A stretch of 64,000 bases of DNA from Sphingobacteriales bacterium (lineage in GTDB: Bacteria; Bacteroidota; Bacteroidia; Chitinophagales; CAIOSU01): contig JAIXOI010000011.1 in the NCBI GenBank assembly GCA_027486795.1, positions 1-64,000 on the forward strand, read 5' to 3'. The notes under the pieces were generated by a model. The model worked only from the letters and a program-made list of their open reading frames with translations, made no database searches and was not told the DNA's origin. Position 1 is the stretch's first letter, and every line of letters begins with the position of its first letter. The position numbers and the translations under genes are program-made. Of the stretch, positions 22,386 through 51,860 are shown in pieces.

Positions 22386-23171
22386 TTATTCCGCCTCTTC
22401 AGTATCGTTATCCAAAGCTACACCTTTCGGTTCGCCATCGAGCAATAAAACGATAAAATTGTTAAAACCTTGACGCAGTTGCAAGTCAACCAACTGTTGC
22501 GCCACCAATTCCAAAATTGCCAAAAAAGTAAACACGGCATGTATCCGATTCTCGCATTCGGCAAATAGCTCTTCGAACGGGGTTGGGGTATCTTTACTTA
22601 TTTGGCTAATAATAATGTCTTTTTGCCCCTCAATGGTATAGGCATAACGCACTACCGAGTGGCGCACTTCTGTTTTTTCCTCGCTATAGCGCTGCAGCAC
22701 TTTGTTGAAAGCGTGCATCAAATTGTACAACGATAGACTGTGCAACTCGGCCTCCACGGTTTTGCTCTCGGTTATGGCTGCAATATCCAGCGCCGTGTTG
22801 CCCCGCTTAAATTTTCGTTGACGGTCTTCCTCCAGTTCTTTTAGCTCATTGGTTACCTCTTTAAACTTTTTATACTCCACTAGCTTTTGCACCAACTCGT
22901 GGCGAGGGTCAATTTCGTTGCCCAGTTCGTCAATGTCGCGTCGGGGCAATAGCATTTTGGCCTTAATGCGCATAAGCGTGGCGGCCACCAACATAAATTC
23001 GCTGGCACCTTCAATGTCCAACTCCTCCATGCCATGCATGTATTGTAAAAAATCGGCAGTAATCTGGGATATCGGAATATCATAAATATCCAACTCGTCG
23101 CGCTCAATAAAGAACAGCAGCAAATCGAACGGACCCTCAAATTGGGGCAGATGTATTTCGTAGGTAGCCAA
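22386..23171 (-). CDS. scpA: Segregation and condensation protein ScpA
   Basis: 261 residues. ScpA is the kleisin subunit that bridges SMC heads in the bacterial condensin. The N-terminal kleisin signature FEGPFDLLLFFIERDELDIYDI (about 11-32) and ISQITADFLQYM follow the start, and a C-terminal winged-helix region carries FLAILELVAQQLVDLQ. The start is TTG (TTGGCTACCTACGAA), because no ATG precedes the conserved region; it lies 7 bases after a perfect -7 box. scpB and smc are not in the window. Confidence 0.93.
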   Translation of the reverse strand: MATYEIHLPQFEGPFDLLLFFIERDELDIYDIPISQITADFLQYMHGMEELDIEGASEFMLVAATLMRIKAKMLLPRRDIDELGNEIDPRHELVQKLVEYKKFKEVTNELKELEEDRQRKFKRGNTALDIAAITESKTVEAELHSLSLYNLMHAFNKVLQRYSEEKTEVRHSVVRYAYTIEGQKDIIISQISKDTPTPFEELFAECENRIHAVFTFLAILELVAQQLVDLQLRQGFNNFIVLLLDGEPKGVALDNDTEEAE

Positions 23172-24660: not shown

Positions 24661-26309
24661 TTTTCCATCTCAATTTCCACCTCAATTTCCCAATTCGGTT
24701 TTAAATCAATTGGCGTTGGATGCATATAAACGCGCTCTGGTTGTCGGCTTTGGTTATAACTACCAGTATCCCATTGTTTATTAAAGTTGGCATCTCTTAC
24801 TATACGAACTTTGTACGCCCCAGGCACAAGCTTTTCGTACTTCTTGCTAAACTTGGTTGTGCCCGTAATTACCACCACCACCACTGGCATGGCATCACCA
24901 ATTCTTGCCTCTAACAAATACTGCTGGCTCGGCTCTAAGCTATCAACAGTTATCGTAACCGCTCCATAATCTTCTGGCTTACGGGCTATTACCTCAAAAC
25001 CGATACTATCGCTCTTTAACCCGTAACTGTCGGTAATAGCACTGTCCAGAAACACTATTTTATAGTGAGAACCGGGCTTCCAACTAAAACCAATGGCTAC
25101 TTTACGTTTTACACTGTCGGCAAAATACACCGTGGGCACCACGGCGTTTATTGTATCTTCAAGCACATATACTTTACTATCGTCCACGTTTTGCGCTGGC
25201 CTATTCAATTCAAATTCAAATGGCCTATCTAGTTCCAAAACATCGGGCGCTGTACTTCTCTTCATTTTCGAAGACACGGTCAACAAACCTGGCTTACCTA
25301 TTTTATAGAGCGAATCGTTGGTAAACAAAGGTGATTTTACGCTTACGCTATCGGTTAAAGTATCGTTTGCTGTAACCAGCAAAATGCTGCGCCCATTGGT
25401 GTTGTAGAGGTACCAATGGCTAATTGTGTCACGTGAAACATTGTACTCAATTAAGCTACCACTGAAATTAGCAGTATCCAACAACGGCTTAATGTCAACC
25501 TTTTTTATAGGCATGGAATAAATAAACTGATTGAATCCTCTGCTTGAAGTAAAAGTTTCTATCAATTGCAGGCTCTTTACCTCTTCTTGGAAAAGCCGCA
25601 ACTCTAATGGCGGCAATGGCACTTCCGAAACTGAAATTGGATCGGGCCAAAAAGCTATTTTTTCATTTGGCAAATCGTACTTCAAATTGAAGTTCTCATC
25701 CTTAACGGCAAATACCTTATACTTCCCACCTTTTAAGTTCTCTATTCTAAACGACCCATCTTTATTAGTACGACCAAAATAATATGGCTTCTCTTTATAA
25801 ACCACGCTATCTTCCAGCACATCGTATAACAAAACTAATACTCCTTCTATCAGTTCTCCCTTCTCGGCCTCCACTACCCTGCCTGTCACAATAAACGAAT
25901 CCAAATAATCGCCCGTGCTAAAAACATATTGAAAATCGGGAAGAACATTACTTTCTGTAAGGTCCTTCACCGCAGCGGTAATATTTATGGTATAGGTAGT
26001 GTTGCTGCGCAAGCTATCTTGAAACTCAATAATCAACTCTTTTCCCTTTACCCTAAAACTAGGAAATGGAACCATAGGCGGTGATATGACTACTTGTTGC
26101 GCGGGATTGTCAAGCACCACATACTCATCGAACAAAATCCGGACCTTCGATTCCTTAAAATTGGTAGACTTATTGAGCGGATATGAGCCTAGAACCTTTG
26201 GTGGTGTTACATCCTTTGGTCCACCAGTAGGTGCAACTTGGTTGGCACATGATGTACCAAACAGCAACAAAACAAAACCCACAATTGTGTACCAAAAGAA
26301 ATTTCTCAT
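24657..26309 (-). CDS. Ig-like-domain lipoprotein
   Basis: 550 residues. The signal sequence ends in a lipoprotein Cys (FGTSC, Cys21). A bacterial Ig-like/SbsA-type domain (about 32-135: PPKVLGSYPLNKSTNFKES, DSLRSNTTYTINI) is followed by a carboxypeptidase-regulatory-like sandwich (about 140-230) and further beta-rich segments. It is probably anchored to the outer membrane; function unknown. Its ATG overlaps the mnmG stop by four bases (ATGA), so it is translated from the same message as mnmG, an odd partner for a tRNA-modification gene. Confidence 0.85.
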   Translation of the reverse strand: MRNFFWYTIVGFVLLLFGTSCANQVAPTGGPKDVTPPKVLGSYPLNKSTNFKESKVRILFDEYVVLDNPAQQVVISPPMVPFPSFRVKGKELIIEFQDSLRSNTTYTINITAAVKDLTESNVLPDFQYVFSTGDYLDSFIVTGRVVEAEKGELIEGVLVLLYDVLEDSVVYKEKPYYFGRTNKDGSFRIENLKGGKYKVFAVKDENFNLKYDLPNEKIAFWPDPISVSEVPLPPLELRLFQEEVKSLQLIETFTSSRGFNQFIYSMPIKKVDIKPLLDTANFSGSLIEYNVSRDTISHWYLYNTNGRSILLVTANDTLTDSVSVKSPLFTNDSLYKIGKPGLLTVSSKMKRSTAPDVLELDRPFEFELNRPAQNVDDSKVYVLEDTINAVVPTVYFADSVKRKVAIGFSWKPGSHYKIVFLDSAITDSYGLKSDSIGFEVIARKPEDYGAVTITVDSLEPSQQYLLEARIGDAMPVVVVVITGTTKFSKKYEKLVPGAYKVRIVRDANFNKQWDTGSYNQSRQPERVYMHPTPIDLKPNWEIEVEIEMEK

Positions 26310-28168
26310 CGGCCCATATAAACCATGAGTACAGAAATGTCGGAAGGAGAAACGCCACTGATTCGGCTAGCTTGACCTAATGTAGTTGGGCGAACCTTCG
26401 AAAGTTTTTCGCGCGCTTCGTGCGACAAAGAGGTAATCTTCCTGAAGTCGAAACTGTCAATGATGCGCACACCCTCCAATTTACCCATTTTATCTACCAG
26501 CTGTTGCTCCTTTTCAATATAGCCCTCGTACTTCATTTTTATCTCCGCCTGTTCCACAAAATCATTATCGTACTGACCCAAATATTGATCTAGCTCGGGC
26601 AACTGGCGGCGCATAATTTGCATGTCAATTTGCGGGCGACTTAAAATTGCGTGTAGCTTAGTTCTATGTGAAATAGCAGTGGTGCCTTGCTCTTCGAGCA
26701 TTGAATTCACCAAATCAGGTGTTACGCTCTCATTTAAAAAGTACTTCTGTACTTCAGCGGCAACGCGTATCTTATCCTCTACCCTAGCCATTCTTTCATC
26801 GCTAGCAAGGCCAAGCTTGTGACCTAGTGGCGTCAATCGCAAATCGGCATTATCCTGGCGAAGCAGAATTCTAAATTCAGCCCTAGAGGTAAACATTCGG
26901 TATGGCTCGTCTGTACCTTTGGTAATCAAATCATCAACCAATACGCCAATATATCCTTCGGAGCGACTGATAATTATTGGCTCTTCTTCTTTAACTGCTA
27001 AATGCGCATTTATTCCTGCCATCAATCCTTGGCAAGCAGCCTCTTCATATCCAGTGGTGCCGTTTATCTGGCCGGCGAAGAATAGATTCTTTACCAACTT
27101 GGTCTCTAAGGTATGTGTTAATTGTGTTGGCGGAAAGTAATCATACTCAATAGCGTATCCAGGACGGAACATCTTGGCATTCTCAAAACCAGCAATTTTT
27201 CGCATCGCTTTATATTGCACATCTTCTGGTAAAGAGGTAGAAAAGCCGTTGATATACATCTCAACTGTATTCCAACCTTCAGGCTCTACAAATATTTGGT
27301 GACGGTCCTTATCTGCAAATCGATTTACCTTATCTTCTACCGATGGGCAGTATCGTGGGCCAAGACCTTTGATACGACCTGTAAACATTGGAGATTTATC
27401 AAAGCCTTCTTTTAATATCTCGTGCACCTCACTATTGGTATAAGTAATGTGGCAAGGGCGCTGTTTGGTTAGCCTCGGTGTATCTGTGTATGAAAATTTT
27501 TCAGGCAGTTCATCGCCTGGCTGTTCTTCCATTTTTGAATAGTCGAGCGTACGGCCATCAACCCTTGGCGGGGTTCCGGTTTTCATACGGCCCGTTTCAA
27601 AACCTAATTCAGCCAGTTGTTCGGTGATACCTGTGGCTGCCCTTTCTGCAGCTCGCCCACCGCCAAACTTTTTCTCCCCAATATGTATTAATCCGTTTAA
27701 AAAGGTTCCATTGGTAAGAACTACGGTCTTGCCCAGTATTTCGTGACCCATACCCGTTTGCACACCTACAACCCTACCGTCCTTAATGATGATACCATTA
27801 ACCATATCCTGCCAAAAGTCTAGGTTGGGCGTATGCTCTAAAGTATTGCGCCACTCGTTTGCAAACAACTGGCGGTCGCTTTGTGCCCGTGGGCTCCACA
27901 TAGCCGGGCCTTTTGATTTATTGAGCATACGAAACTGAATCATGGTGAGGTCGGTAATGATACCCGAGTATCCCCCCATGGCGTCAATCTCTCTAACAAT
28001 CTGCCCTTTGGCTACACCGCCCATTGCTGGGTTACAACTCATTTGGGCGATAGTTTGCATATTCATAGTAATCAGGATCACCCGCGAGCCCATATTGGCC
28101 GCTGCGGCTGCGGCCTCGCAGCCCGCGTGACCTGCACCTACTACTATTACGTCGTATTCTGGAAACAT
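26306..28168 (-). CDS. mnmG: tRNA uridine-5-carboxymethylaminomethyl synthesis protein MnmG (GidA)
   Basis: 620 residues, the normal length. MnmG with MnmE builds the 5-carboxymethylaminomethyl group on U34 of tRNAs, using FAD. The FAD-binding VVGAGHAGCEAA at 9-20 and the family blocks MSCNPAMGGVAKGQ, GTFLNGLIHIG, GRMKTGTPPR, FAGQINGTTGYEEAA and the C-terminal GEAS-type LGQASRISGVSPSDISVL are present. It follows ybeY in the same direction after a 104-base gap that holds a parS-like site. mnmG is a classic origin-proximal gene. Confidence 0.96.
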   Translation of the reverse strand: MFPEYDVIVVGAGHAGCEAAAAAANMGSRVILITMNMQTIAQMSCNPAMGGVAKGQIVREIDAMGGYSGIITDLTMIQFRMLNKSKGPAMWSPRAQSDRQLFANEWRNTLEHTPNLDFWQDMVNGIIIKDGRVVGVQTGMGHEILGKTVVLTNGTFLNGLIHIGEKKFGGGRAAERAATGITEQLAELGFETGRMKTGTPPRVDGRTLDYSKMEEQPGDELPEKFSYTDTPRLTKQRPCHITYTNSEVHEILKEGFDKSPMFTGRIKGLGPRYCPSVEDKVNRFADKDRHQIFVEPEGWNTVEMYINGFSTSLPEDVQYKAMRKIAGFENAKMFRPGYAIEYDYFPPTQLTHTLETKLVKNLFFAGQINGTTGYEEAACQGLMAGINAHLAVKEEEPIIISRSEGYIGVLVDDLITKGTDEPYRMFTSRAEFRILLRQDNADLRLTPLGHKLGLASDERMARVEDKIRVAAEVQKYFLNESVTPDLVNSMLEEQGTTAISHRTKLHAILSRPQIDMQIMRRQLPELDQYLGQYDNDFVEQAEIKMKYEGYIEKEQQLVDKMGKLEGVRIIDSFDFRKITSLSHEAREKLSKVRPTTLGQASRISGVSPSDISVLMVYMGR

Positions 28169-28216: not shown

Positions 28217-28232
28217 TGTTCCACGTGGAACA
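28217..28232. promoter_or_regulatory. parS: parS-like ParB-binding site 1
   Basis: TGTTCCACGTGGAACA is a perfect 16-bp palindrome that matches the ParB-site consensus TGTTnCACGTGnAACA. It lies in the mnmG-ybeY gap, 49 bases before the mnmG start. The second copy is 59 bp away. Confidence 0.85.
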
Positions 28233-28272
28233 TTTCAAGTAAACTTTGCCTTAAAATCACTTTTACTCCATG

Positions 28273-28713
28273 TTATGTTCCACGTGGAACAACGAAGCTT
28301 TCGAATAGCATAAGTGCTTGATTTTCAGCATGTCGCATGGCTTCTTGGTCGCCCTTTTTCTTATCCTTAAGGCCCAATAGATGCATTATACCGTGTATCA
28401 TTACCCTACGCAGCTCTATATCGAAATCTACAGCCTCTTTAATGGCATTTTCTTTCACCCTATCAACGCTAACAAATAAATCGCCGCATACAATATCGCC
28501 CTCGGTATAATCAAACGTGATGATATCTGTATAGTAATCGTGCTGCAGATGTTCTTGGTTCATCTGCAACAAATACTCATCGCTGCAAAACACATAGGCC
28601 ACATCGCCGAGTTTTTTGTTCTTTGATTCTACGACAGACTTTACCCAAGCCTTCAAAGCTCGAGAATTAGCTAATCGAAACGATATAGATTCTTTGTGGA
28701 ATGAAACAGGCAC
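28273..28713 (-). CDS. ybeY: Endoribonuclease YbeY (rRNA maturation factor)
   Basis: 146 residues. YbeY is a metal-dependent RNase needed for 16S rRNA 3'-end maturation and ribosome quality control. The motif HGIMHLLGLKD (about 110-120) gives two zinc histidines; the third His of the HGxxHLxGxDH form is replaced in the KDKKKGDQEAM segment, which I believe is usual for Bacteroidota. The last codons, encoding VPRGT plus stop, overlap a parS-like palindrome, so the C-terminus is constrained by DNA function. It is separated by 10 bases from the upstream ATPase gene, so an operon is likely. Confidence 0.93.
   Translation of the reverse strand: MPVSFHKESISFRLANSRALKAWVKSVVESKNKKLGDVAYVFCSDEYLLQMNQEHLQHDYYTDIITFDYTEGDIVCGDLFVSVDRVKENAIKEAVDFDIELRRVMIHGIMHLLGLKDKKKGDQEAMRHAENQALMLFESFVVPRGT
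28276..28291. promoter_or_regulatory. parS: parS-like ParB-binding site 2, inside the 3' end of ybeY
   Basis: A second perfect TGTTCCACGTGGAACA starts 59 bp after the first. It is read on the minus strand as the last codons of ybeY (GTT CCA CGT GGA ACA, then the stop TAA). I found no further copy in the window. Confidence 0.85.
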
Positions 28714-34765: not shown

Positions 34766-37252
34766 ATGCTGGGCTGGCTGGGCTACTGTAAATATGGGAT
34801 ACTCCTTTTTTTACTTTCCACTTTGGGAGCAAATAGCCTTTTATCTCAATCGCTTGTATACACGGGTACTGTTACCGATGCCGTAACCGATGAACCCATA
34901 CCTTTTGCAAATGTATATTTTATGGGGAGCACTGCCGGAGGAATGACAGACTTTGACGGAAAATATACTATTACGGTTTATAAAAGACCCGATACCATTG
35001 CTGTTTCCGTTCTAGGATATAAACCGGCTAAAAAACCTATTTCACCCAACAGCCAAATCACCAATTTTAAACTAGAACGTGATGCTTATAACCTTGAGGA
35101 AATAGTAATTGTTGCAGGCGAAAACCCTGCAGATATTATACTTAAACGAGTAATAGAAAACAAAAAAATAAATGACAAGGATAAGCTAAACCGATATGCT
35201 TACCAGGCTTACAACAAAACGGAAATTGACTTGTATGATATTGACGACAAGTTTATGGACAGAAAAGTAATGAAGCCATTCCTTTTTATCTTCGATTATT
35301 TGGACAGTACCAGCGAAGAAGCACCCTATTTACCTGCATTTTTAGCCGAAAACCTCTCAGACTTTTATTACCGGAAAGATCCTAAACAACGACGCGAAGA
35401 AATTAAGGCCAGCCGTATTTCAGGTATTGACAATGAGAGCTTATCGCAAATGATGGGTAGCCTGTACCAGGAGGTAGATATATATGACAACTGGATAAGC
35501 CTAGTTAGTAAAGATTTTGCTTCGCCCATTGCCGATAATGCTCTTAATTACTACAAGTACTACTTGGTTGATAGTGGTTTTATTGATGGATACTATAGCT
35601 ACAAACTCAATTTCGTGCCCCGAAGCAAAGGATATAATACCTTTTTGGGCGATATATGGATAGCCGACAGTAGCTATGCTGTTATGAAAATAAATATGCA
35701 GGTGGCCGACCACGTGAATATTAACTTTATTGAACGAAGCAGTGTATACCAAGAATTTGGAGAGATACAACCCGGAACTTGGATGATTACGCGAGATAAA
35801 ATTGTAATCAAATTTAAGGTAGTTGACAAAGCAGTGGGTATTATTGGTCGCAAAACTGCATCGTTTAGGGATTTTAAAATTAATGATGAAGCACTGGACT
35901 CCGTTTTTGTAAACCGCGATGACATTGCTATAGCCGAAAATGTAATAGTTGAAGATGAACGTTTTTGGGAAACCGTGCGCCATGAAGAATTATCAAGTGC
36001 CGAACTGGGGGTATACCAAATGGTTGACTCGCTTAAAAACAACAAGGCTTTTAAAACTTGGATTGATATTATTGACTTGGTACTTAACGGCTATTACCAA
36101 GTAAAATATATTGAATTTGGCCCTTACTCATCTTTAGTGAGTTTAAATAAGGTAGAGCAATTCAGATTTAGGGTTGGTTTTAGAACCACTGCTGAACTAA
36201 GTAAGCATTTTAGGGTAGGAGCCTATATTGCCTACGGCACTGGCGATAAAATGTTTAAGTACGGTGCCAATGGTATGGTGTATATACAAAAGAAACCACA
36301 ATTATATTTAGGTGGTAGCTATATGTTCGATTATGATTTGGCAGCAAGCAGTGATGCCGAGTTTGGCAAAGACAATATACTCTCAGGATTATACCGCCGC
36401 CGAAAAGTACCTCTTAAACTTAATCTTATGCGTGAATGGACAGCCTATGCATACAAAGAGTGGCGCTTTGGGTTGAGCCATAAAATACTGTTTCGAAATT
36501 CGCAGGTAATGCCAAAATTTGCTTATTCATATATACCGCAAGCCAGCGATGTTTACGAAGACACCCTTATTACCAACTTTACGAATACCGAGCTTGACAT
36601 TATAAATCGCTTTGCGTACAAAGAGACTTTTTTAAGCGACGACTTTGACAGACTTAGTTTAGGCACCAAACACCCAATACTGTACTTTAGATACCGCATG
36701 GGTTTGAAAAACATATTGAACAGTGGCTTTAAATATCAACGTATTGATTTTATATTGACTGACGAGTATGCCATAAAACCATTGGGTACACTGCACATGG
36801 ATGTAACGATGGGTAAAATATTTGGCACGCTACCTACGCAATTGCTCGAAATTTTTCAAGGAAACGAAACTTACTTTTACAATGATTATGCATTTAACCT
36901 CATGAACGAATACGAGTTTGTGAGCGACATGTATATTACTATTTCACTGCGTCATCACTTAGAAGGTTTCTTTTTCAATAAAATACCGGGATTTAGAAAA
37001 CTAAAATGGCGCGAGGTAATTGGTTTTAAAGCTGCTTGGGGTACAATAAGCAATGCCAATAAAAAAGCTAACGTAAACAACTTCTCTATAACTCCATTTC
37101 CAATACCCTACATGGAAACGAGTGTAGGTATTGAAAATATACTTAAAATATTCAGAGTAGATGCGGTATTTAGAATTACCTACCGTAACAGGCCCGAATT
37201 CTTATACACTACAAATATGGGCGTAAGGTTAGGTATAGCCATTGATTTTTAA
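34766..37252 (+). CDS. DUF5686 outer-membrane protein with carboxypeptidase-regulatory-like head
   Basis: 828 residues: signal peptide about 1-28, a CarboxypepD_reg-like sandwich (about 30-115, TGTVTDAVTDEPIPFANVYF), then the DUF5686 region beginning ENPADIILKRVIENKKIND, and a long beta-rich C-terminal half that ends VRLGIAIDF, probably an outer-membrane barrel. Function unknown. The head domain is similar in layout to that of the TonB receptor at 12350, but no plug domain follows. A near-consensus TATCTTTC lies at 34710-34717. Confidence 0.85.
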   Translation: MLGWLGYCKYGILLFLLSTLGANSLLSQSLVYTGTVTDAVTDEPIPFANVYFMGSTAGGMTDFDGKYTITVYKRPDTIAVSVLGYKPAKKPISPNSQITNFKLERDAYNLEEIVIVAGENPADIILKRVIENKKINDKDKLNRYAYQAYNKTEIDLYDIDDKFMDRKVMKPFLFIFDYLDSTSEEAPYLPAFLAENLSDFYYRKDPKQRREEIKASRISGIDNESLSQMMGSLYQEVDIYDNWISLVSKDFASPIADNALNYYKYYLVDSGFIDGYYSYKLNFVPRSKGYNTFLGDIWIADSSYAVMKINMQVADHVNINFIERSSVYQEFGEIQPGTWMITRDKIVIKFKVVDKAVGIIGRKTASFRDFKINDEALDSVFVNRDDIAIAENVIVEDERFWETVRHEELSSAELGVYQMVDSLKNNKAFKTWIDIIDLVLNGYYQVKYIEFGPYSSLVSLNKVEQFRFRVGFRTTAELSKHFRVGAYIAYGTGDKMFKYGANGMVYIQKKPQLYLGGSYMFDYDLAASSDAEFGKDNILSGLYRRRKVPLKLNLMREWTAYAYKEWRFGLSHKILFRNSQVMPKFAYSYIPQASDVYEDTLITNFTNTELDIINRFAYKETFLSDDFDRLSLGTKHPILYFRYRMGLKNILNSGFKYQRIDFILTDEYAIKPLGTLHMDVTMGKIFGTLPTQLLEIFQGNETYFYNDYAFNLMNEYEFVSDMYITISLRHHLEGFFFNKIPGFRKLKWREVIGFKAAWGTISNANKKANVNNFSITPFPIPYMETSVGIENILKIFRVDAVFRITYRNRPEFLYTTNMGVRLGIAIDF

Positions 37253-37349
37253 GCTCCACATTTTATAAACCTTTCTATAAATCACTGAAAGAGGTGAACA
37301 AAATAAAAACGTGCTTGTTATCTGATGGTAATTATTAAAATCCGTCGAG

Positions 37350-37736
37350 ATGATAAATCAAGTTAACCTCAAAAAAGCCTCTACTATTGCTCGTGCAATT
37401 GCACATCCAATTAGGCTTTCAATTCTTAAATTTATCAGTGAGCAGGGTACTACAAACGTTAACAAAATATATAATACCCTAAGCCTTGAGCAATCAATTA
37501 CCTCGCAGCATTTGCGCATTTTACGCACCTCTGAATTGGTAAATACCCAACGTGAAGGTAAGTTTATACATTACTCAGTAAACCTCAAAAAGGTAGCAGC
37601 CTTTAATGAATCGCTGACCATCTTCTTCGCCAAAAAGGTAGATATTAGCGAAGACTTGGAAGAGGAAGCTGTAAAAAGCACTGTGAAACAAAAGAGTATA
37701 AATAAAACTAGCCGCTCACAGCCCGAAGCGCGCTGA
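37350..37736 (+). CDS. ArsR-family winged-helix regulator
   Basis: 128 residues. The winged helix-turn-helix covers about 12-80: [39 protein letters not shown] (recognition helix) and [15 protein letters not shown] (wing). No Cys or His cluster for metal sensing is visible, so it is not a classic metal sensor. The Lys/Ser-rich C-terminal tail overlaps the end of nadA on the opposite strand by 21 bases. It may follow the DUF5686 gene; its target is unknown. Confidence 0.87.
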
Positions 37737-38723
37737 TATTTCCAGCATTCTTTCTATCGATTTTTTAGAGCGTTCAATTAGGTCAGCCTCCAAATTTACT
37801 TCGGGGCTACCATATTTCATGCACAAATAAATCTTCTCCAACGTATTCAATTTCATGTGCGGGCAATCGTTACAGGCACATGAATTATTGGGCGGCGCGG
37901 GTATAAATGTTTTATTGGGGCTCTTCTTTCGCATTTGATGTATAATACCTGCTTCAGTAGCAACTATAAACTCATCAGCAGTATTAACCTGAGTAAATTT
38001 CAACAAACCTGCAGTGCTACCTATGTAAGCCGCCTTATCCAATATTGGGGCTTCACATTCTGGGTGGGCAATCAACAGGGCATTTGGGTGGCGCTCTAGC
38101 AAGCGCGTTATTTTCTCTAACGAAAAAATCTCATGCACCATACAGGCTCCATCCCACAACACCATATCGCGGCCTGTTTTCTTTATTAAATACGCTCCCA
38201 AATTTTTATCAGGCGCAAATATAATTGGCTGATCTTTTGGTATACTTTCAATTATCTGTACCGCATTGGTACTGGTGCATACAATATCGCTCAGGGCCTT
38301 TATCTCTGCAGTGCAGTTTACATACGTAACCACAATATGATCAGGATACAACTTTTTAAAAGCCTCAAATTTATCTGGAGGGCAACTATCAGCTAAACTA
38401 CAACCAGCCTTTAAATCGGGCAGCAACACCGTCTTATTAGGACTTAATATTTTGGCTGTTTCGGCCATAAAATGCACTCCAGCAAACACTATCACATCGG
38501 CATCAGTTTGGGCAGCTTGTTGCGAAAGTCCCAGGCTGTCGCCCACATAATCGGCAATGTCCTGTATATCGGGGTCTTGGTAGTAGTGAGCCAGTATAAC
38601 CGCATTTTTCTCTTTTTTAAGTTTTTCAATTTCCGCAAACAAATCCAATGTTGGGTCAACGAAAGTATCCAAAAAACCGCGGCTTTGTAAATTGCTTTTT
38701 GCTTCTGCTAGGCTAAGGGCCAT
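37716..38723 (-). CDS. nadA: Quinolinate synthase NadA
   Basis: 335 residues. NadA is an iron-sulfur enzyme that condenses iminoaspartate (from NadB) with dihydroxyacetone phosphate to quinolinate. Candidate cluster ligands are Cys108 ([10 protein letters not shown]), Cys194 (DGACMVHE) and the C-terminal CACNDC group (282-287). [10 protein letters not shown] (46-55) and [10 protein letters not shown] are other signatures. nadD lies upstream on the same strand after a 444-base gap, and nadB is at 60370, so the pathway is not in one operon. Confidence 0.96.
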
Positions 38724-39167
38724 TTTATTATTATTAGTTTATTAAAGAGATTTCATCATAATCATTAAGGCTGTGCATTCGGTTGTAACTCACCTCTAAT
38801 TTACTTGCTCGTTTCGTTATTCCAATCATTTACTACGCTATTAACAAGTTGTTGGGGGCAATTGGTTCTGTAAATCAAGCACTTTAATACGTTGTGCACA
38901 TAGTGTTGGTTTAAGATGAGGTTAATATTAAATTTACACAACCTCGTGGATAAGCCGAGGATAACCTGTGGGTAAAAAAGGGAAAAATAGGTTTGGTAAA
39001 TAATAACTTTTAGCATGGCAAAACTCCGTTTTCTTATCCGCTTTCCATCCCCACGCTACTAACAAAAAATGAACAGTTGATGTTAATTTCTTGTTTGCTA
39101 AACGCCTTATAAAACAGCCTAAAACCAAGGTTAAAATACTGCAATGTGTGTAACTTTTGTGCACCGA
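38724..39167. other. AT-rich gap with 11-bp-phased DnaA-box-like words
   Basis: No gene fits this 444-base gap between nadA and nadD. At 38945-38975 three 9-mers in the same orientation start at exact 11-bp steps: CGTGGATAA, CGAGGATAA and TGTGGGTAA, which differ from the DnaA box TGTGGATAA by one, two and one bases. One-mismatch boxes also occur at 38892 (TTGTGCACA) and 39145 (TGTGTGTAA). The surroundings are AT-rich. This could be a DnaA-binding or origin-type region; it is a candidate only. Confidence 0.35.
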
Positions 39168-39746
39168 TTATTTGTAAAGGTTCATATGCTCTATATACAA
39201 TCGGACTTTTTCGTGCACTAAGTATTTGATAGAGATACCCTCACTAATACATTGCCTTATGTAGCTTGCAGAAATATCCATTTGCGGAAAGGGAACTATT
39301 TGTACGCTAGTTTCAAAATTTTCGGGCGCATTTGGCGCAGGTGTATCAGGACGCTGATATACAAAAACGGTATAGTGGCGCAAAATGGCCTCGTAGTTTT
39401 TCCATTTGGTAATGTTGGCCAAGTTATCGGCACCCATGATAATGCTAAATCGGTAATCAGGAAACTTTTGGGTCAAGTGCGCCAATGTATCAATGGTATA
39501 GCTTGGTTTGGGCAACGAAAACTCAATGTTGCTCACCCGAAAGTGGTCATTGTCTTCGGTAGCAAGTGTTACCAAATGCAACCTATCATATTCGTTTAGC
39601 ATGCCCGTTTTGCTCTTTAGCGGGTTTTGTGGCGACACCACAAACCACACCTGGTTTATATCGGTATGCTCCACCAGTTGGTTGGCAATAACCAAGTGCC
39701 CCATGTGTATAGGGTTGAACGAACCAAAAAACAAACCGATGTGCAT
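39168..39746 (-). CDS. nadD: Nicotinate-nucleotide adenylyltransferase NadD
   Basis: 192 residues. NadD adenylates nicotinate mononucleotide to deamido-NAD. The nucleotidyltransferase motif GLFFGSFNPIHMGH is at 4-17, and the second motif ISASYIRQCI is near residue 161. ATG at 39746 begins the conserved strand; the 12 upstream codons have no homology. It is the third NAD-synthesis gene in this window. Confidence 0.95.
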   Translation of the reverse strand: MHIGLFFGSFNPIHMGHLVIANQLVEHTDINQVWFVVSPQNPLKSKTGMLNEYDRLHLVTLATEDNDHFRVSNIEFSLPKPSYTIDTLAHLTQKFPDYRFSIIMGADNLANITKWKNYEAILRHYTVFVYQRPDTPAPNAPENFETSVQIVPFPQMDISASYIRQCISEGISIKYLVHEKVRLYIEHMNLYK

Positions 39747-39807
39747 AGTACTACTATATAGTATACCTACAAAGTTACGCAAATGTTTGGGGCGTGGATG
39801 AATATGG

Positions 39808-39835
39808 AATTTACGAGGTACGAAGTACGATAGAA
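39808..39835. repeat. Short-period degenerate tract (ACGAGGTACGA words)
   Basis: The words TTTACGAG, GTACGAA and GTACGATAG follow one another, sharing the word set of the tracts at 23193 and 41573. Confidence 0.5.
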
Positions 39836-39855
39836 AGAGGAGGCTGCTGATTTTT

Positions 39856-39925
39856 TCGTTTGCAAGTAAATATTAGCTAATTTGTAAGCTAGCGATCAAC
39901 CTTGTTTCAGCTAAGGCGGAAAGTA
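39856..39925. repeat. Dispersed repeat R1, copy a
   Basis: This 70-base segment matches 58501-58570 at roughly 79%, with the shared cores TAAATATTAG, TAATTTGTA, GCTAGCG and GCTAAGGC. Both copies lie upstream of T9SS-sorting-domain sequence (168 bases before the gene here, 38 before the remnant there). The 346-base gap from nadD to 40093 otherwise holds the R2 repeat and the short-period tract, and no gene. Confidence 0.65.
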
Positions 39926-39977
39926 TTGCAAATCCGTATACTCTGCTGATCAAAAGTATGTCTGGATCCGGCGACTT

Positions 39978-40007
39978 CGCCTGAGGCGGGACAGGGTGAA
40001 GACGCGG
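39978..40007. repeat. Repeat R2, copy a (upstream of the T9SS cargo gene)
   Basis: A 30-base segment starting CGCCTGAGGCGGGACAGG agrees with 41685-41714 in 26 of 30 positions, in the same orientation. The two copies flank the cargo gene. Confidence 0.55.
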
Positions 40008-40092
40008 TGTCCGTTTCATCCTCGTCAAAAGAAGATTAGGACGAGGGGGGTAATCCAGTGTCACAAACTGGTAAAATCATTAAATTGGAGTA

Positions 40093-41568
40093 ATGTTAAG
40101 AAAACTGATGCTATCAATTATTTGCACTATTGCATCAAGCTTACTGCAAGCTCAAAGCACGTTTGAGCTTGCAGTGGATTATGACAATGGCGTGGAAGGG
40201 GCCACTAGTGTTTTGGCTGTGGATGACGGTATAATAGTATTAGGAAACGGTCCGATATCTGGGCCATATCCTAATTATGGATCTATTAAAATACTGAAAC
40301 TAACTTTTTCGGGCAGTGTAGTTTGGAAGAAGAGTTATTCTATGCAGTTCAAAACCTTGTTTAGTGGCCGCCCATCCAACGTTAAGAAAGTTCCTTGGGG
40401 AGGTTATGTGTTTGCAGGTAGCAGTATTGACACATCTGGCGCAAACCATGCCCTTCTTTGCGTTTTTGACGAGAACGGAGACACGCTTTTTTTAAGGGAA
40501 TTTCCTAAAAGCAATACCGTGCGTATAGGATACTCTTGTTTGCCATTACCTGATAAAGGGTTCTTAGTTATGGGACTCTCAAACGAGCTTGGGACTGCTG
40601 TTGACAGATTCTGGGCTATGCGTGTGGATAGTACTCTGAACTTGATTTGGGACACGGTTTACACAAACAATGGCACCACTTCAGGGTTTACTGCAGAATA
40701 CAACGTAGAACGCGACATCATATTATTCGGGGGGTATTCCCAGGGGATGCCTTGGCTAATGGAAGTGGATAGCATGGGTCGCATATTGTGGCAGCGAAAA
40801 TTCGTATCTCACTCCGATTGTGGTACATATGCTAAGTATACTACTGATGGTGGAATCTTATTTACAGGGTGCCTTGATACTGTTCTTCAAGGTTTTTATG
40901 GTGGCAGTTCTGACCAGCCCGATTATGTGGCTAAGCTAGATAGCAACAGGAATTTGGAATGGAGAACATTTTTTCCTTTTAATACTGATTTTCAGATAAT
41001 CCAATCAGTAAGGGAAACTACAGGTGGATATTTATTTGGAGGGTTTACGGGAGACAACTCCATTGGCGTAGGTTGGGTTGGCAAGTTAGATTATAATGGA
41101 CAATTAATTTGGCAAAGGTATTATCAGCATTTATATCAAGGATACAATATATATTGTGAGCTTCGCGATATTGATGTTGCAATCGACGGAGGTGTTTTAG
41201 CTACTGGCACAACCCATGAGCAAACTCAAGATATGTGGGTGCTAAAGCTTGATACCATGGGTTGTCTTTTGCCAGGCTGTGATACTATGCCCTGCCGCTA
41301 TCCACCATGCGATACAACAGGCATCACCGAAACCACCACCCTCCAAGCCAAACTGTACCCCAACCCCACCACGGGCACGCTCACCATTGAGCTGCCGGGC
41401 GGGGAAGGCGGCAGCATAGCGCTGTATAACCTACTAGGGCAAAACGTGTACCAAGCCACCCTTGCGGGCGGGCAAACCACCCTAGCCCTAAACCTACCCC
41501 CCGGCCTATACCTCTACCGCATTGGCAGCGGCAACCAAGCCAATAACGGCAAGCTGCTGGTAGAGTAG
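40093..41568 (+). CDS. Secreted T9SS cargo protein with type-A sorting domain
   Basis: 491 residues: signal peptide 1-20 (SLLQAQ), a body with repeated aromatic-rich strands (VWKKSYSMQF, LIWDTVYTNNG, ILWQRKFVSH, LIWQRYYQHLYQG) that looks like a beta-propeller of the delta-60-repeat type, and a C-terminal sorting domain from about residue 415 (LYPNPTTGTLTIEL) to KLLVE. The product would be exported and fixed on the cell surface by the T9SS. The body is AT-rich, while the sorting domain (after about 41300) is clearly GC-rich with different codon use, suggesting a separate origin. The gene is bracketed by the R2 repeats. Confidence 0.85.
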   Translation: MLRKLMLSIICTIASSLLQAQSTFELAVDYDNGVEGATSVLAVDDGIIVLGNGPISGPYPNYGSIKILKLTFSGSVVWKKSYSMQFKTLFSGRPSNVKKVPWGGYVFAGSSIDTSGANHALLCVFDENGDTLFLREFPKSNTVRIGYSCLPLPDKGFLVMGLSNELGTAVDRFWAMRVDSTLNLIWDTVYTNNGTTSGFTAEYNVERDIILFGGYSQGMPWLMEVDSMGRILWQRKFVSHSDCGTYAKYTTDGGILFTGCLDTVLQGFYGGSSDQPDYVAKLDSNRNLEWRTFFPFNTDFQIIQSVRETTGGYLFGGFTGDNSIGVGWVGKLDYNGQLIWQRYYQHLYQGYNIYCELRDIDVAIDGGVLATGTTHEQTQDMWVLKLDTMGCLLPGCDTMPCRYPPCDTTGITETTTLQAKLYPNPTTGTLTIELPGGEGGSIALYNLLGQNVYQATLAGGQTTLALNLPPGLYLYRIGSGNQANNGKLLVE

Positions 41569-41572
41569 GGGG

Positions 41573-41655
41573 TTATTTACGATTTTAGATTTACGATTGG
41601 AAAAAGGGCAAGGGGTTATTTACGATTTTAGATTTACGAGGTACGATTGGAAAAA
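41573..41655. repeat. Tandem pair of the TTATTTACGATTTTAGATTT tract
   Basis: The word GGGTTATTTACGATTTTAG followed by ATTTACGATTGG or ATTTACGAGGTACGATTGG occurs twice in tandem, about 44 bases apart. It occurs a third time after the sorting-domain remnant at 58915. The link between sorting domain and this tail is therefore conserved. Confidence 0.7.
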
Positions 41656-41684
41656 GGAGTAAGTACGCATAGCAAAGGCGTCCC

Positions 41685-41714
41685 CGCCTGAAGCGGGACA
41701 GGCTGAAAGCGCGG
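41685..41714. repeat. Repeat R2, copy b (downstream of the T9SS cargo gene)
   Basis: CGCCTGAAGCGGGACAGG and the following 12 bases match 39978-40007 in 26 of 30 positions, same orientation. The core CCCGCCTGAAGCGGG is itself palindromic. Confidence 0.55.
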
Positions 41715-41731
41715 GGAAGCTTGTGTATAGA

Positions 41732-42082
41732 CTACTTCTTCTCCGCAGCCACTTTAGCTTGCACCTGCTCCCAGGTGCCGCCGTTAATTACATTGGTGTG
41801 GCCGTTTTTTTCGAGGATGCTTTTGGCCTGACCGCTGCGGTTGCCGCTGCGGCAAAACACTACAATCTGGCCTTTACCTTCAAATTCGGCTAAGCGCTGT
41901 TCAACTTCGTTGAGGGGTATGTTTACCGAGCCATCTACCGTGCCCTCGGCTACCTCTTCCGGGGTTCGTACATCTACCAAAAAGGCGTTCTTCAAATCAA
42001 TTTCGCCTTGTTGCTGTGCCGCGCACGATTGCATGCCGAATACGGAGGCTACTATGGCCACTATCATTACTATTGTTTTCAT
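41732..42082 (-). CDS. Rhodanese-like lipoprotein
   Basis: 116 residues. A signal sequence ends in a lipoprotein Cys (MQSCAAQ, Cys20), then a single rhodanese domain with LVDVRTPEEVAEG and the active-site loop VVFCRSGNRSGQA (Cys82). Rhodaneses move sulfane sulfur through the loop Cys. The lipid anchor puts it in the periplasm. It is 12 bases after a second, cytoplasmic rhodanese and probably cotranscribed. Confidence 0.9.
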   Translation of the reverse strand: MKTIVMIVAIVASVFGMQSCAAQQQGEIDLKNAFLVDVRTPEEVAEGTVDGSVNIPLNEVEQRLAEFEGKGQIVVFCRSGNRSGQAKSILEKNGHTNVINGGTWEQVQAKVAAEKK

Positions 42083-42094
42083 AGGTGTTAGTTT

Positions 42095-42370
42095 TTAGTG
42101 TTGCAGCGTGGCTACGTAGCTCCACGGACCGCCGTTAATTACATTAAATATACCATTTTGATGCAGAAAAGCGTGCGCTTGGCCGCTACGGCCACCACTA
42201 AGACAAAAAACCACAATGGGGTCTTTGCCCTTAAACTGTGCAAGCTCCTGCGGCAGGCGGTCAAGCGGAATGTTAATAGCGCCTTTAACGCTACCACCGG
42301 CAAACTCGCTTGGGGTGCGCACATCTACCAAAAACGCGTTTCGGCTATTGATTGCATCTTGAAGATTCAT
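42095..42370 (-). CDS. Rhodanese-like protein, cytoplasmic
   Basis: 91 residues, one rhodanese domain with LVDVRTPSEFAGG and the loop VVFCLSGGRSGQAHAF carrying the catalytic Cys (about 57). It has no signal peptide. Together with the lipoprotein downstream it forms a pair of closely similar paralogues on opposite sides of the inner membrane. A sulfur-relay or redox role is possible; no thiosulfate genes are nearby. Confidence 0.88.
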   Translation of the reverse strand: MNLQDAINSRNAFLVDVRTPSEFAGGSVKGAINIPLDRLPQELAQFKGKDPIVVFCLSGGRSGQAHAFLHQNGIFNVINGGPWSYVATLQH

Positions 42371-42527
42371 AACTAGGTTTTTAACAGTTTATTAATTTAA
42401 TCATTTCGCAAGCCATAAAGACTTAGTACTGCAAAGTTGGGAATGTAAAATGGCGCAATCGGTAACTTTGGTTACTTAACCAAAAAAAGTTGCCATGGGC
42501 GGATTAAGCTTTTAGCGGGAGCTTTAC

Positions 42528-42812
42528 ATGAAACCATTTAACCATTACAATAACTGCCACTTTCCCCACTTGTTGGGTATATTTGCAACTATGGTTCAGG
42601 CAGTACCCGGTAAGTTTATTGAGAAGGGCATTGCGCACTACGGTGGCGTGTTGGATACCGAATTGCAGGCGCTCATAGCCAAAGCAGGTTTCCCTTACGA
42701 GCCATACCTGTTTAAAGATGGCCGCATGATGCTGGTAAACCGCGAACTAAACTTCGGTTTTCTATATTCCAGCAAAGATGAGGTAATGGAGAAGTTGGTG
42801 TTGGAGGGGTAA
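42528..42812 (+). CDS. Small hypothetical protein
   Basis: 94 residues, no recognised family. The C-terminal two thirds (MVQAVPGKFIEKGIAHYGG, then LQALIAKAGFPYEPYLFKDG) looks like a small soluble protein. An alternative ATG at 42591 gives 73 residues and is possible. It has no signal peptide of clear form. The 182 bases downstream contain only weak coding signal and then the L,D-transpeptidase. Confidence 0.55.
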   Translation: MKPFNHYNNCHFPHLLGIFATMVQAVPGKFIEKGIAHYGGVLDTELQALIAKAGFPYEPYLFKDGRMMLVNRELNFGFLYSSKDEVMEKLVLEG

Positions 42813-42994
42813 TAGTTGGTTCGCTATTCAACGGTGCTATTTATGCTGATTTGTGGAGCAATTGCCGCAATCGTATTCAAACCTATTATTGACGAAGGTC
42901 ATAATACATGTTGGGTATTTAGGGTAACTTCACTGTCCTAAATACTGGTGTTATAATAGTTTCAACTAAATCTGCTGTTGGTTTTCTTTGCTCG

Positions 42995-43942
42995 ATGGTT
43001 TTGGCCAGCACCACTTGGCTTGGCTGCAATGGGCATGAGCAAGCACCACCGCGCGAGCCCAATACAGTCGATATTATTTTTCATGAAAAGCAGGTAGATG
43101 AGGTATTTGATTTGCCGCTAAAGACTGGACCCGCCCCATATGCTTTTTTGATAGTGATTGATACGCCTGTAACGGTGAAGCACTATTATGCTTTTATGGA
43201 TAGTTTGCTGGCGGCCTATGCCCCTCGCGTGTCGTACAGGCTTACGGAATACATTGTAGCACATGCCAACCCTTGGATAATTGATACTTTAGTGAGCTTT
43301 GATTACTACACTCGCCAAGCGCGGGGCGAATTTATAAACGACCAAAAGGAAATGACTGTGCTGCGCAAAGGCGAAGTGCTGCTCATACCCAAAGCGCCGC
43401 AAGCAGATAGCATTAAAGCAGCACTTGACAGCACCATTATTGATGTGAACATACCAGAGTTTAAGCTGCGCCTATTGGTAAATGGCGTAGTAAAATACAG
43501 TTTCCCGGTGCGAGTAGGGCGCAACGAACGCAAGTACCTAGCCATGGCAGGTCATGAGGTTAGTCTTCGAACGCCCATAGGCGAAGGCGAAATTATACGG
43601 ATTGCCTACAACCCTGCCTTCATTAACCCTGCCGACAATAAAATATACTACGCCACTAAACGCGATGATGGCAAATACACCCAACTCCCCTTAATACCGT
43701 GGCTAGAGCCTACCATTGATGGCCGTCGGCAAGGTTCGCTTATACACCCTACTACCAACCAGGCTACGTTGGGCAGGCCGTATTCTAACGCCTGTGTAGG
43801 GTTGCCCGAAGGAGCAGCATGGATAGTGTACTACAATGCTCCCCTGGGCACCAAGGTGCGTTTCCGCTACCAGTTAGATGTAGTAAACGAAGCAGGCGAT
43901 AGCGTAAAGCTAAAGGACATTTACCAGCAATATGAACGGTAG
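42995..43942 (+). CDS. L,D-transpeptidase (YkuD) lipoprotein, larger
   Basis: At least 315 residues. A YkuD domain starts near residue 155 (NIPEFKLRLLVNGVVKYSFPVRVGRN) and ends with GSLIHPTTNQATLGRPYSNACVGLP, where IHP and the Cys of NACVGLP are the catalytic residues. The N-terminus shows a lipoprotein-like TTWLGCNGHE. The in-frame sequence upstream (to a stop at 42920) extends the hydrophobic region with a Lys (STKSAVGFLCS), which would make a better signal sequence, but no ATG, GTG or TTG precedes it. The true start is therefore uncertain. Confidence 0.82.
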   Translation: MVLASTTWLGCNGHEQAPPREPNTVDIIFHEKQVDEVFDLPLKTGPAPYAFLIVIDTPVTVKHYYAFMDSLLAAYAPRVSYRLTEYIVAHANPWIIDTLVSFDYYTRQARGEFINDQKEMTVLRKGEVLLIPKAPQADSIKAALDSTIIDVNIPEFKLRLLVNGVVKYSFPVRVGRNERKYLAMAGHEVSLRTPIGEGEIIRIAYNPAFINPADNKIYYATKRDDGKYTQLPLIPWLEPTIDGRRQGSLIHPTTNQATLGRPYSNACVGLPEGAAWIVYYNAPLGTKVRFRYQLDVVNEAGDSVKLKDIYQQYER

Positions 43943-44031
43943 TCGCTAATTGGCGGTTTGTTTCTAGTGCACAGTCCACAGAAAACAGCAAAAGAGGGAT
44001 AAGTTGTTATACGGTAAAATGGCCTAAAGCC

Positions 44032-45336
44032 TTACAAGCGCTTAATCTTAGCACCTAGGGCGTTCAACCTACCATCAATGTTTTGGTAGCCGCGATCAAT
44101 TTGGTTCACGTTGTGAATGAGGCTGGTGCCGTTGGCCGATAGGGCGGCTATCAGTAGCGCCACGCCTGCACGTATATCTGGCGAGCTCATGCTGATGCCG
44201 CGCAATGGGTAAGCCTTATTAATGCCCACTACCGAAGCCCGATGCGGGTCGCAAAGGATGATTTGGGCACCCATATCGATCAGCTTATCCACAAAAAACA
44301 AGCGGCTCTCGAACATCTTTTGGTGAATGAGCACCGTACCTTTGGCTTGAGTAGCTACTACCAGCACTATACTTAACAAATCAGGCGTAAAGCCCGGCCA
44401 AGGGGCATCGGCAATGGTCATGATGCTGCCATCAATAAAGGTCTGTATTTCGTAATGGCTTTGCTCGTGCACCACAATGTCATCGCCTATAATATCAAAA
44501 TTGATACCCAAGCGGCGGAATGTATCAGGTATAATGCCCAAGTGCTCAATACCCACATTTTTGATGGTAATGTTGGAGCCTGTCATGGCGGCAAGGCCAA
44601 TAAAGCTGCCAATCTCAATCATATCGGGCAATAAGCGGTGGATAGTGCCCCCCAGCGAATCGACCCCTTCAATAGTAAGCAAGTTGGAGCCAATGCCTTG
44701 TATTTTGGCGCCCATACGCACCAGCATATTGCAAAGCTGTTGTAGGTAAGGTTCGCAAGCGGCATTAAAAATGGTGGTTTTACCTTTGGCCAATACCGCC
44801 GCCATTACCACGTTGGCAGTACCTGTTACCGAAGCCTCATCGAGCAACATATAGGTGCCAGTAAGGTGGCTAGCATCAACATGGTACATGTAGGTTTCGG
44901 CATCATAATTGAATTGAGCGCCTAGCTTCTCAAACCCAAGGAAGTGGGTGTCTAACCTACGACGGCCAATTTTGTCACCACCTGGGCGAGGTATATGTGC
45001 CGCTTGAAAACGGGCCAACATGGGGCCAACAATCATAATAGAACCGCGCAGGCTAGCCGCTTTTTTGCGGAAAGCGGGCTCCAACATTACATCGGGCGAT
45101 ACATTTTTGGCCTCGAAAGTAAATGTGCCAGCCGATTCGCGGGTAATGGCTACACCCATATCGCCAAGGATATCGATGAGGTGGTTTACATCCACAATGT
45201 CGGGCACATTGCTTATGGTTACCTTTTCTGGGGTAAGCAATACGGCACAAAGTATTTGTAGTGCTTCGTTTTTAGCTCCTTGTGGGGTTATTTCGCCTTG
45301 CAGCTTTTGCCCCCCTACAACCTCAAAAGTATCCAT
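44032..45336 (-). CDS. murA: UDP-N-acetylglucosamine 1-carboxyvinyltransferase MurA, Cys-to-Asp type
   Basis: 434 residues. MurA transfers enolpyruvate from PEP to UDP-GlcNAc, the first committed peptidoglycan step. GAKNEALQIL (20-29), SLRGSIMIVGPMLAR (95-109), GTANVVMAAV and SPDIRAGVAL are family blocks. The active-site loop reads PRPGGDKIGRRRLDTH: Asp121 stands where most MurA enzymes have the catalytic Cys attacked by fosfomycin. Such Asp enzymes are active but not inhibited, so insensitivity is predicted. It follows the DUF4290 gene by 11 bases. Confidence 0.95.
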   Translation of the reverse strand: MDTFEVVGGQKLQGEITPQGAKNEALQILCAVLLTPEKVTISNVPDIVDVNHLIDILGDMGVAITRESAGTFTFEAKNVSPDVMLEPAFRKKAASLRGSIMIVGPMLARFQAAHIPRPGGDKIGRRRLDTHFLGFEKLGAQFNYDAETYMYHVDASHLTGTYMLLDEASVTGTANVVMAAVLAKGKTTIFNAACEPYLQQLCNMLVRMGAKIQGIGSNLLTIEGVDSLGGTIHRLLPDMIEIGSFIGLAAMTGSNITIKNVGIEHLGIIPDTFRRLGINFDIIGDDIVVHEQSHYEIQTFIDGSIMTIADAPWPGFTPDLLSIVLVVATQAKGTVLIHQKMFESRLFFVDKLIDMGAQIILCDPHRASVVGINKAYPLRGISMSSPDIRAGVALLIAALSANGTSLIHNVNQIDRGYQNIDGRLNALGAKIKRL

Positions 45337-45347
45337 GTGGGCTTATT

Positions 45348-46046
45348 TTATGGTTTTTTGTTGTGCCTTGGTTTGAAGTTCTTATTGTGCCGCTGACCGC
45401 CGCTACCGCCACTGCGGTCGCCGCCTTTGCCAGGTCGGCGTTTGCCGCCGCCGCCGCTGCGCTCACCATCGCGTTGCTGGAAACCGCCGGTGTGGCGTTT
45501 TTCGCGGGCTAAAAGATCAAGGTTGGTTTCGTCACCTAGTTTCAATTTACCACCGCTCATACGCTCCAAGTCATCCATGATTACTTGGTTGTTCACGGTC
45601 TCATTGTTCCAGTTGGTGTGCACCAGTTTCATGTAGTTGCCAATTACTTCGGCAAACTCTTGTCGTTTTTGGGCATCCTCCATCTCGTTCGCTTTTTTAA
45701 TCAGCGTTTCGATGTTTTTGCCATAGTGGCGGTGCTTAAACTCGCTCTGTGGGTATGGTATGCGTTCAGGCTTTGCAAAGATAGTTTCCTTATCAGGCAC
45801 TGGGTATGGTGAATCAACCACCAATTTAAAATCGGACATGATAATGATATGATCCCACAGCTTATGTCGGAAATCTTCCACGTTTTTCAAATGCGGGTTC
45901 AACTGGCCCATTAGTTCTATAACTATTTTGGCCTGTTCGTTTCTTTTCTTGTCGTCGTCTATTGAGAGGAGGTATTCTACCATCCGTTGCACGTTGCGGC
46001 CGTACTCGGTCATTTCTAACCTACCGCGCTCGGTATTATAATTCAT
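45348..46046 (-). CDS. DUF4290 protein
   Basis: 232 residues. A conserved helical domain (about 1-165, MNYNTERGRLEMTEYGRNVQ and LNPHLKNVEDFRHKLWDH) is followed by a basic, Gly/Arg-rich tail (about 180-232, RSGGGGKRRPGKGGDRSGGSG) that suggests RNA or polyanion binding. DUF4290 proteins occur in Bacteroidota, commonly upstream of murA; function unknown. It has its own exact -7 box (46068) and leads a two-gene operon with murA. Confidence 0.88.
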   Translation of the reverse strand: MNYNTERGRLEMTEYGRNVQRMVEYLLSIDDDKKRNEQAKIVIELMGQLNPHLKNVEDFRHKLWDHIIIMSDFKLVVDSPYPVPDKETIFAKPERIPYPQSEFKHRHYGKNIETLIKKANEMEDAQKRQEFAEVIGNYMKLVHTNWNNETVNNQVIMDDLERMSGGKLKLGDETNLDLLAREKRHTGGFQQRDGERSGGGGKRRPGKGGDRSGGSGGQRHNKNFKPRHNKKP

Positions 46047-46067
46047 GAAGTTGTTTTACTGTACTTA

Positions 46068-46075
46068 CAAAGGTA
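46068..46075 (-). promoter_or_regulatory. -7 box for the DUF4290-murA operon
   Basis: On the minus strand TACCTTTG fits TAnnTTTG, 21 bases before the ATG at 46046. Confidence 0.55.
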
Positions 46076-46210
46076 GCGAATTTTCCATTAGAGCATAATA
46101 TTGCCAACAGGCAGGAATTGAGCGCCAAGTTTATACATAGCTGAGTATCTAAAAACCAAATTTAATGGCCTAGGCCATCTGGCTAATAAAAACAAATAAA
46201 AGCAAGCGTT

Positions 46211-47581: not shown

Positions 47582-47710
47582 GACTCGGCCTCTTTAAAAT
47601 TAAAGGTAATGAACATCCATCATGAACGGAAGTATCAATGCTTTATTTAGCATATGGATTAGCGGCGCAACATACCTTTATGCCCGCCCTTAGCAACACA
47701 AAACTAATGC

Positions 47711-48409
47711 TTAGAAATAGGAAAAAGCTACCATTTGGCCCAACAAGCCAACCATGTAGCCTGATACCACTTCGCGAGGAGTATGTGCGCCCAAAAACAA
47801 CCGTGCCGAGCCAACCGCACCAACTATGACAATAACCAAAAGCAGCGGAAACAATAGATTATAAGTAGAGATAAGCGTAAGCGTAAGCGCTACACCAAAA
47901 AAGCCGCCAACGCCTACAGCATGAATGCTGATTTTGTAGAAAACATTGGCAAAGAAGGCCATAAAAATACCCAAACTAGCCCCTAACGATATGTGTGAGA
48001 AATAATGGCCAACCCCTAGCTTTTGCACCACTAAATAGGTCCAGAAATAGAACAAAGAGATGGCAATAAATGGAATGATGCGCTCTTTATTGGTTTTTAG
48101 TTCAAAGGAACTAATCATTTTTAGGCCTCGCATTAATACCAGCACAATCACCGGAAACACCAGCGTATTGGTGACAATGGTAAGCATGAGTTGGGTTTTT
48201 TGCTGAGGCCCTAGGTGTAAAAACTGGTACGGAAAAAACACATCAACAAATACAAAGGAATAGGTAGCCAACAATATTGGGTGAAAAACATAAGAGATAA
48301 TGGTGCTCAATATCCATAGCACATTGCTTTCGGTAGCAGGTTGGTAAACCACATCCTCGTCGGCAATAAACGTTAACTCTTCTTCTTCTGGTTGTTGCTC
48401 GTTGCTCAT
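47711..48409 (-). CDS. PAP2-like integral membrane protein
   Basis: 232 residues. A short acidic start is followed by about six membrane helices (first about 28-50, last about 215-230). The late segment SARLFLGAHTPREVVSGY fits the third PAP2 motif (SRxxxxxHxxxDVxxG, with a Glu for Asp), and HAVGVGG resembles the second; the first motif is not obvious. It may be a lipid phosphatase or a degenerate relative. Its start overlaps the rpoN stop by four bases (ATGA). Confidence 0.75.
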   Translation of the reverse strand: MSNEQQPEEEELTFIADEDVVYQPATESNVLWILSTIISYVFHPILLATYSFVFVDVFFPYQFLHLGPQQKTQLMLTIVTNTLVFPVIVLVLMRGLKMISSFELKTNKERIIPFIAISLFYFWTYLVVQKLGVGHYFSHISLGASLGIFMAFFANVFYKISIHAVGVGGFFGVALTLTLISTYNLLFPLLLVIVIVGAVGSARLFLGAHTPREVVSGYMVGLLGQMVAFSYF

Positions 48410-49899: not shown

Positions 49900-50038
49900 A
49901 GTGCGTCTCCAAATAATAAATGTGAAATAACAAACCTCTCAGTCTCCATTTTGGCTAAAAATTAAATGGCCAATCATATACCATACCAACTTTTAAGCCA
50001 TGCGCTTTTGGGTAAACTATTGCCTATAAAAGCAATTG

Positions 50039-50075
50039 TTTCCTGTTTCACATTTCGTATTTCACATTTACATCT
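50039..50075. repeat. Short-period degenerate tract (TTTCACATTTCGT words)
   Basis: The words TGTTTCACATTTC, GTATTTCACATT and TACATC follow at 12-13 base steps in the gap between rpoN and asnS. It resembles, in complement, the AAATGCGA words at 61980 and 62548. Confidence 0.5.
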
Positions 50076-51856: not shown

Positions 51857-51860
51857 TAAA

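Follow-up and report, generated by a model that had tools for sequence, protein, structure and literature searches.

Bacterial chromosomes carry parS sites, centromere-like DNA marks by which the protein ParB takes hold of freshly replicated chromosomes to separate them. Within 64,000 nucleotides of a Bacteroidota draft genome (the window), two palindromes sit at the junction of the co-oriented, minus-strand genes ybeY and mnmG, which raises the question of whether they are such a centromere and whether the copy that coincides with the end of ybeY is kept as DNA or as protein. In this Chitinophagales-like bacterium, we consider it very likely that the pair serves as the chromosomal centromere, a parS cluster. 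It is an ordinary chromosomal parS, of a kind already well known, and sequence comparison supports the sites, their uniqueness, the type of ParB, the proximity of the origin and the selective conservation of the palindromes.

The initial annotation described two perfect 16-bp palindromes that fit the ParB-binding consensus and have no further copies in the window, and all of this holds. Both copies of TGTTCCACGTGGAACA are present, 59 bp apart from start to start, and match TGTTYCACGTGRAACA; the palindrome of copy 1 widens to 18 bp (ATGTTCCACGTGGAACAT, 28216-28233). When up to three mismatches are allowed, the only extra match in the window is a three-mismatch site at 25425; shuffled versions of the window gave on average 0.17 matches at this threshold and never three. 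Many copies spread round the chromosome would have spoken against parS, but when the entire draft assembly was searched (3,904,780 bases in 59 contigs, 97.6% complete), exactly two sites turned up at ≤2 mismatches. Few, clustered copies are what a chromosomal parS should show, and here there are two, 59 bp apart, with none elsewhere at that threshold. A first-order Markov model predicts 0.0006 exact copies per genome by chance, and the reversed sequence, used as a control, has no site in the whole draft genome. The two palindromes are thus almost certainly the only parS sites of the bacterium, although, given an assembly of this completeness in 59 contigs, additional sites are possible in the absent portion of the genome. 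A promoter and terminator scan around both sites gave a count not above that of shuffled sequences. In a scan of contigs, site pairs with exact sequence and the same spacing occur in many phyla among the matches listed.

Table 1 Positions of the palindrome pair, its neighbours and related loci.
Feature	Position	Strand	Remarks
Putative parS copy 1	28217..28232	.	TGTTCCACGTGGAACA; intergenic between ybeY and mnmG, ~49 bp 5' of the mnmG start codon
Putative parS copy 2	28276..28291	.	TGTTCCACGTGGAACA; coincides with the final codons of ybeY (VPRGT)
ybeY (rRNA maturation RNase)	28273..28713	-	146 aa; NCBIfam TIGR00043, score 88 bits (cut-off 45)
mnmG (gidA)	26306..28168	-	NCBIfam TIGR00136, above cut-off; companion of the parS cluster across the phylum
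scpA-like gene	22386..23171	-	Segregation/condensation protein A models match best but do not reach their curated cut-offs
Cumulative GC-skew minimum of the contig	35000..60128	.	First trough ~35 kb, lowest point 60,128
Hybrid site	L377:1195		
ParB loci with A or T at position 201	L389-L393, L395, L408		

Absence of parB from the genome was a ground for rejection that the initial annotation had named, but a chromosomal-type ParB is encoded on contig C41 with parA directly upstream. At the specificity positions 173, 179, 184 and 201 this protein reads R, Y, R and G. In Caulobacter ParB, R173, T179, A184 and G201 decide between binding of parS and of the Noc-binding site NBS, and R173 and G201 are described as absolutely conserved in ParB (PMC7383237); the C41 protein, which has both, is thus parS-type. 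It also retains the CTP-pocket motifs GERR and ENIQR, so that a cognate ParB with parS-specific residues, encoded together with ParA, accompanies the sites as it should a chromosomal parS. A second ParB-like gene lies on contig C53, but the residues that contact parS are missing from the helix-turn-helix of its product, which is therefore not a plausible partner. This ParB/KorB-like protein of 327 aa (locus L004, G000:C53:89118-89606) is followed by a 281-aa protein without an NCBIfam match.

The pair had been called origin-proximal on account of its place beside mnmG. This is borne out by GC skew, although dnaA and parAB lie on other contigs. In the contig of the window the cumulative skew drops to ~35 kb, remains low until 60 kb and then climbs to the contig end, so the replication origin probably lies 7-32 kb from the sites. 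In three single-contig relatives, sampling round the chromosome shows that the minus-to-plus change of GC skew falls at the parS cluster or close by, and fine sampling places the cumulative minimum 9.3, 14.2 and 14.6 kb from the cluster. By this proxy the sites are close to the replication origin, as chromosomal parS sites are. No cluster of DnaA boxes was found near the skew minimum, with a single perfect box in 104 kb, at 44,285, and oriC is consequently not pinpointed. One observation that runs counter to parS is the separation from dnaA and parAB, unlike the textbook arrangement; it is equally present in the single-contig relatives, where the sites are at the skew minimum and dnaA and parB are 0.7-3.4 Mb away. 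Adjacency to mnmG, not to parAB or dnaA, marks the origin here. The genes rnpA and mnmG belong to the classical oriC neighbourhood; in the window rnpA (63130-63549) and mnmG are 35 kb apart, around the skew minimum of the contig. The window also contains a large open reading frame of 1181 aa (51861-55406) with a long collagen-like G-X-Y repeat domain. In gut bacteria, too, the origin is reported not to be necessarily at dnaA (PMC10197239). For a draft genome with dnaA and parAB on other contigs, the palindrome pair fixes the centromere and, with it, the approximate replication origin.

The association with mnmG extends well beyond this genome. Among the matches listed, the closest titled records are metagenome-assembled genomes of Chitinophagales, with MnmG identities of 93% (L135) and 97% (L142). 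Across the order, GTTYCACGTGRAAC is present in 108 of 148 genomes, mostly as two or three clustered copies, with a reversed control of about zero; the canonical motif is missing from the other 40 (~27%), which counts against the reading as parS. When family f14 is left out, mnmG lies within ~1.5 kb of the sites, a locus of roughly 3 kb, in 49 of the 50 order genomes checked. In other orders of the class, 14 of 15 genomes show the same arrangement. In other classes of the phylum mnmG is near the sites in 25 of 30 genomes, some of them read over a wider region. In f14 (seven genomes checked) the cluster is kept and mnmG is absent from its neighbourhood, with ybeY 4-8 kb off in four of the seven. 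Across much of the phylum, where dnaA is a poor guide to the origin, parS clustered next to mnmG, frequently at its junction with ybeY, is usable as a marker.

Three other explanations of the palindromes have to be weighed. As had been noted, YbeY ends within copy 2, which spells its five terminal residues (...FVVPRGT, TAA stop), and the match might be kept mainly as protein, in the form of a functional VPRGT tail, with the intergenic copy a product of chance or a duplicated remnant. VPRGT does stand at or near the YbeY end in every near relative aligned, but the TIGR00043 match stops at residue 137, ahead of this tail, and the five codons are four-fold degenerate with third positions that are invariant save for the outermost base. 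In an alignment of six genomes that belong to this genus or lie near it, the gene ends and the spacer diverge while both palindromes stay intact, the sole change being the outermost base of one copy in one species, and intergenic copy 1, invariant in this alignment, is as conserved as copy 2. The sites are thus conserved beyond the surrounding sequence, as is expected of a chromosomal parS. At more distant ybeY ends (57 distinct loci), the 14-bp core lies past the stop codon in 36, over the stop only in two and in the coding end in 19, where it is read as V-P/S-R-G-T in eight, C-S-T-W-N in four and F-H-V-E in seven. This three-frame evidence excludes a protein-driven origin of the match, and we give the peptide explanation practically no credence. 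Whether VPRGT is kept only together with the palindrome, as the initial annotation had wondered, has a simple answer: VPRGT is one of three accidental translations. The mutual constraint of protein end and DNA site that it had proposed runs mostly in one direction: what is retained is the DNA site, and the YbeY tail is dispensable, because relatives carry the site in any of the three frames or outside the coding sequence altogether. Judged from these alignments, the overlap with ybeY is incidental and owes to the very short gap between ybeY and mnmG, with selection on the DNA site and the YbeY tail merely reading through. The reading of one DNA site in three frames at the end of ybeY is a clear natural case of selection that acts on a DNA element and not on a peptide.

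The palindromes could instead be operators through which a local transcription factor, or ParB acting solely as a repressor, controls mnmG or ybeY. The promoter-like position of copy 1 upstream of mnmG would suit this, as would the fact that mnmG is the most constant neighbour, but the distance between copy and mnmG varies from tens of bp to >1.5 kb, copies occur at either end of the gene and in numbers of up to 9-10, and in f14 the cluster persists with no mnmG nearby. Moreover, other phyla have identical pairs of the palindrome flanking parAB, and a general regulator would have more copies, of which the genome has none elsewhere; a role as operators is therefore very improbable. A nucleoid-occlusion function, with the palindromes as Noc-binding (NBS-like) sites, is more improbable still. 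NBS has the centre CCCGGG, but the centre here is CACGTG. The C41 ParB scores 241 bits on the NCBIfam nucleoid_noc model, and the solved structures that match it best are Noc chains, yet the score falls short of the model's cut-off of 315 and the residues R/Y/R/G differ from Q173/K179/K184/R201 of Noc (PMC7383237). Two clustered, origin-near sites are also unlike NBS, which are scattered round a chromosome (PMC4331003).

Both parS and ParB are canonical in the genome of the window. Several genomes of the order that lack the canonical motif have a slightly altered site repeated in the customary position, such as two copies of TGTTCCATGTGGAACA or three of TGTTCCACGGGGAACA. The variants TGTTCCATGTGGAACA, TGTTCCACGTGGCACA, TGTTCTACGGGGAACA, TGTTCCACGGGGAACA, TGCTCTACGTGGAGCA and TGTTCTACGTAGAACA are identical within a genome and different between genomes, and this identical repetition suggests that the copies within one genome change together. 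Variant parS-like sites were seen upstream of mnmG in L363, L364, L365, L366 and L370, and also at G135:C11:1226640 and 1228310. In another four loci without canonical parS, from two genera (L375, L376, L381 and L382), a paired GTTCCACGAATCCCAGTTTC repeat occurs ~40-46 bp apart upstream of mnmG; in these four genomes the repeats are often followed by GGAACA or GAAACA and resemble parS half-sites split by an insert.

ParB also differs in part of this group. Position 201 is G in every ParB read from genomes with canonical sites, and A or T in seven genomes without canonical parS (G042, G065, G083, G052, G002, G071 and G057). The genomes had been selected for their lack of canonical sites and share ancestry among themselves; the association between position 201 and the site is therefore a lead and not a test. 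Three of the G201A/T genomes have hybrid sites of the type TGTTTCACGGGAAAC, with a CACGGG centre, on the mnmG contig. In G002 (G201A), TGTTTCACGGGAAACC lies immediately 3' of the ybeY stop; in G065 (G201A), a hybrid pair TGTTTC(A/C)CG(G/T)GAAACA at C3:164303 and 164802 is 499 bp apart and ~36 kb from mnmG; and in G042 (G201A), one hybrid site is found at C11:25798, on the mnmG contig. In the hybrids, for example TGTTTCACGGGAAACA, CAC is retained in one half-site, and the other reads CCC, as in NBS. Some lineages may thus have replaced canonical parS by hybrids in its position or close by, along with a G201A/T ParB. It is conceivable, if on the doubtful side, that parS and ParB specificity drift together in the order; if they do, the hybrids would be intermediates, found in nature, between recognition of parS and of NBS.

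Taking the pair as parS, we infer by analogy how it may work. ParB dimers from the C41 parAB operon would recognize each palindrome through the helix-turn-helix that carries R173 and G201, close with CTP into clamps at the two palindromes and slide into the flanking DNA. ParA would then move the ParB-parS complex, and the nearby origin with it, to the daughter cells. ScpA is the kleisin of the SMC condensin, which is loaded by ParB-parS in model species, and SMC-ScpAB may likewise be loaded at the ParB-parS sites here. An scpA-like gene happens to lie ~5 kb from the palindrome pair. The model for these proposed steps is provided by ParABS systems characterized elsewhere (PMC7333895).

Compared with known systems, the closest match is to Pseudomonas aeruginosa, whose parS2 and parS3 are identical to TGTTCCACGTGGAACA over the 16-mer and, as perfect palindromes, bind ParB with the highest affinity (PMC4368675). 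There, too, the strongest parS sites are clustered near the origin and most copies are inside coding sequences (PMC4368675). In contrast, P. aeruginosa has ten spread sites where this genome has two 59 bp apart. Its parAB is ~7 kb from oriC; here neither parAB nor dnaA shares a contig with the sites. The Bacillus-type consensus TGTTTCACGTGAAACA (Livny et al. 2007, as cited in PMC10197239) has the same palindrome architecture with a CACGTG core, and is read by a ParB of the same family with R173 and G201; it differs at half-site position 5, which is C/G here and T/A there, and in its gene neighbourhood. In Hi-C work on gut bacteria, including Bacteroides, parS clusters served to place the origin (PMC10197239). 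Linkage to mnmG or ybeY and overlap with coding sequence do not come up in the sections consulted, which describe what is also seen here: a parS cluster at the shift in GC skew and an origin that is not always at dnaA.
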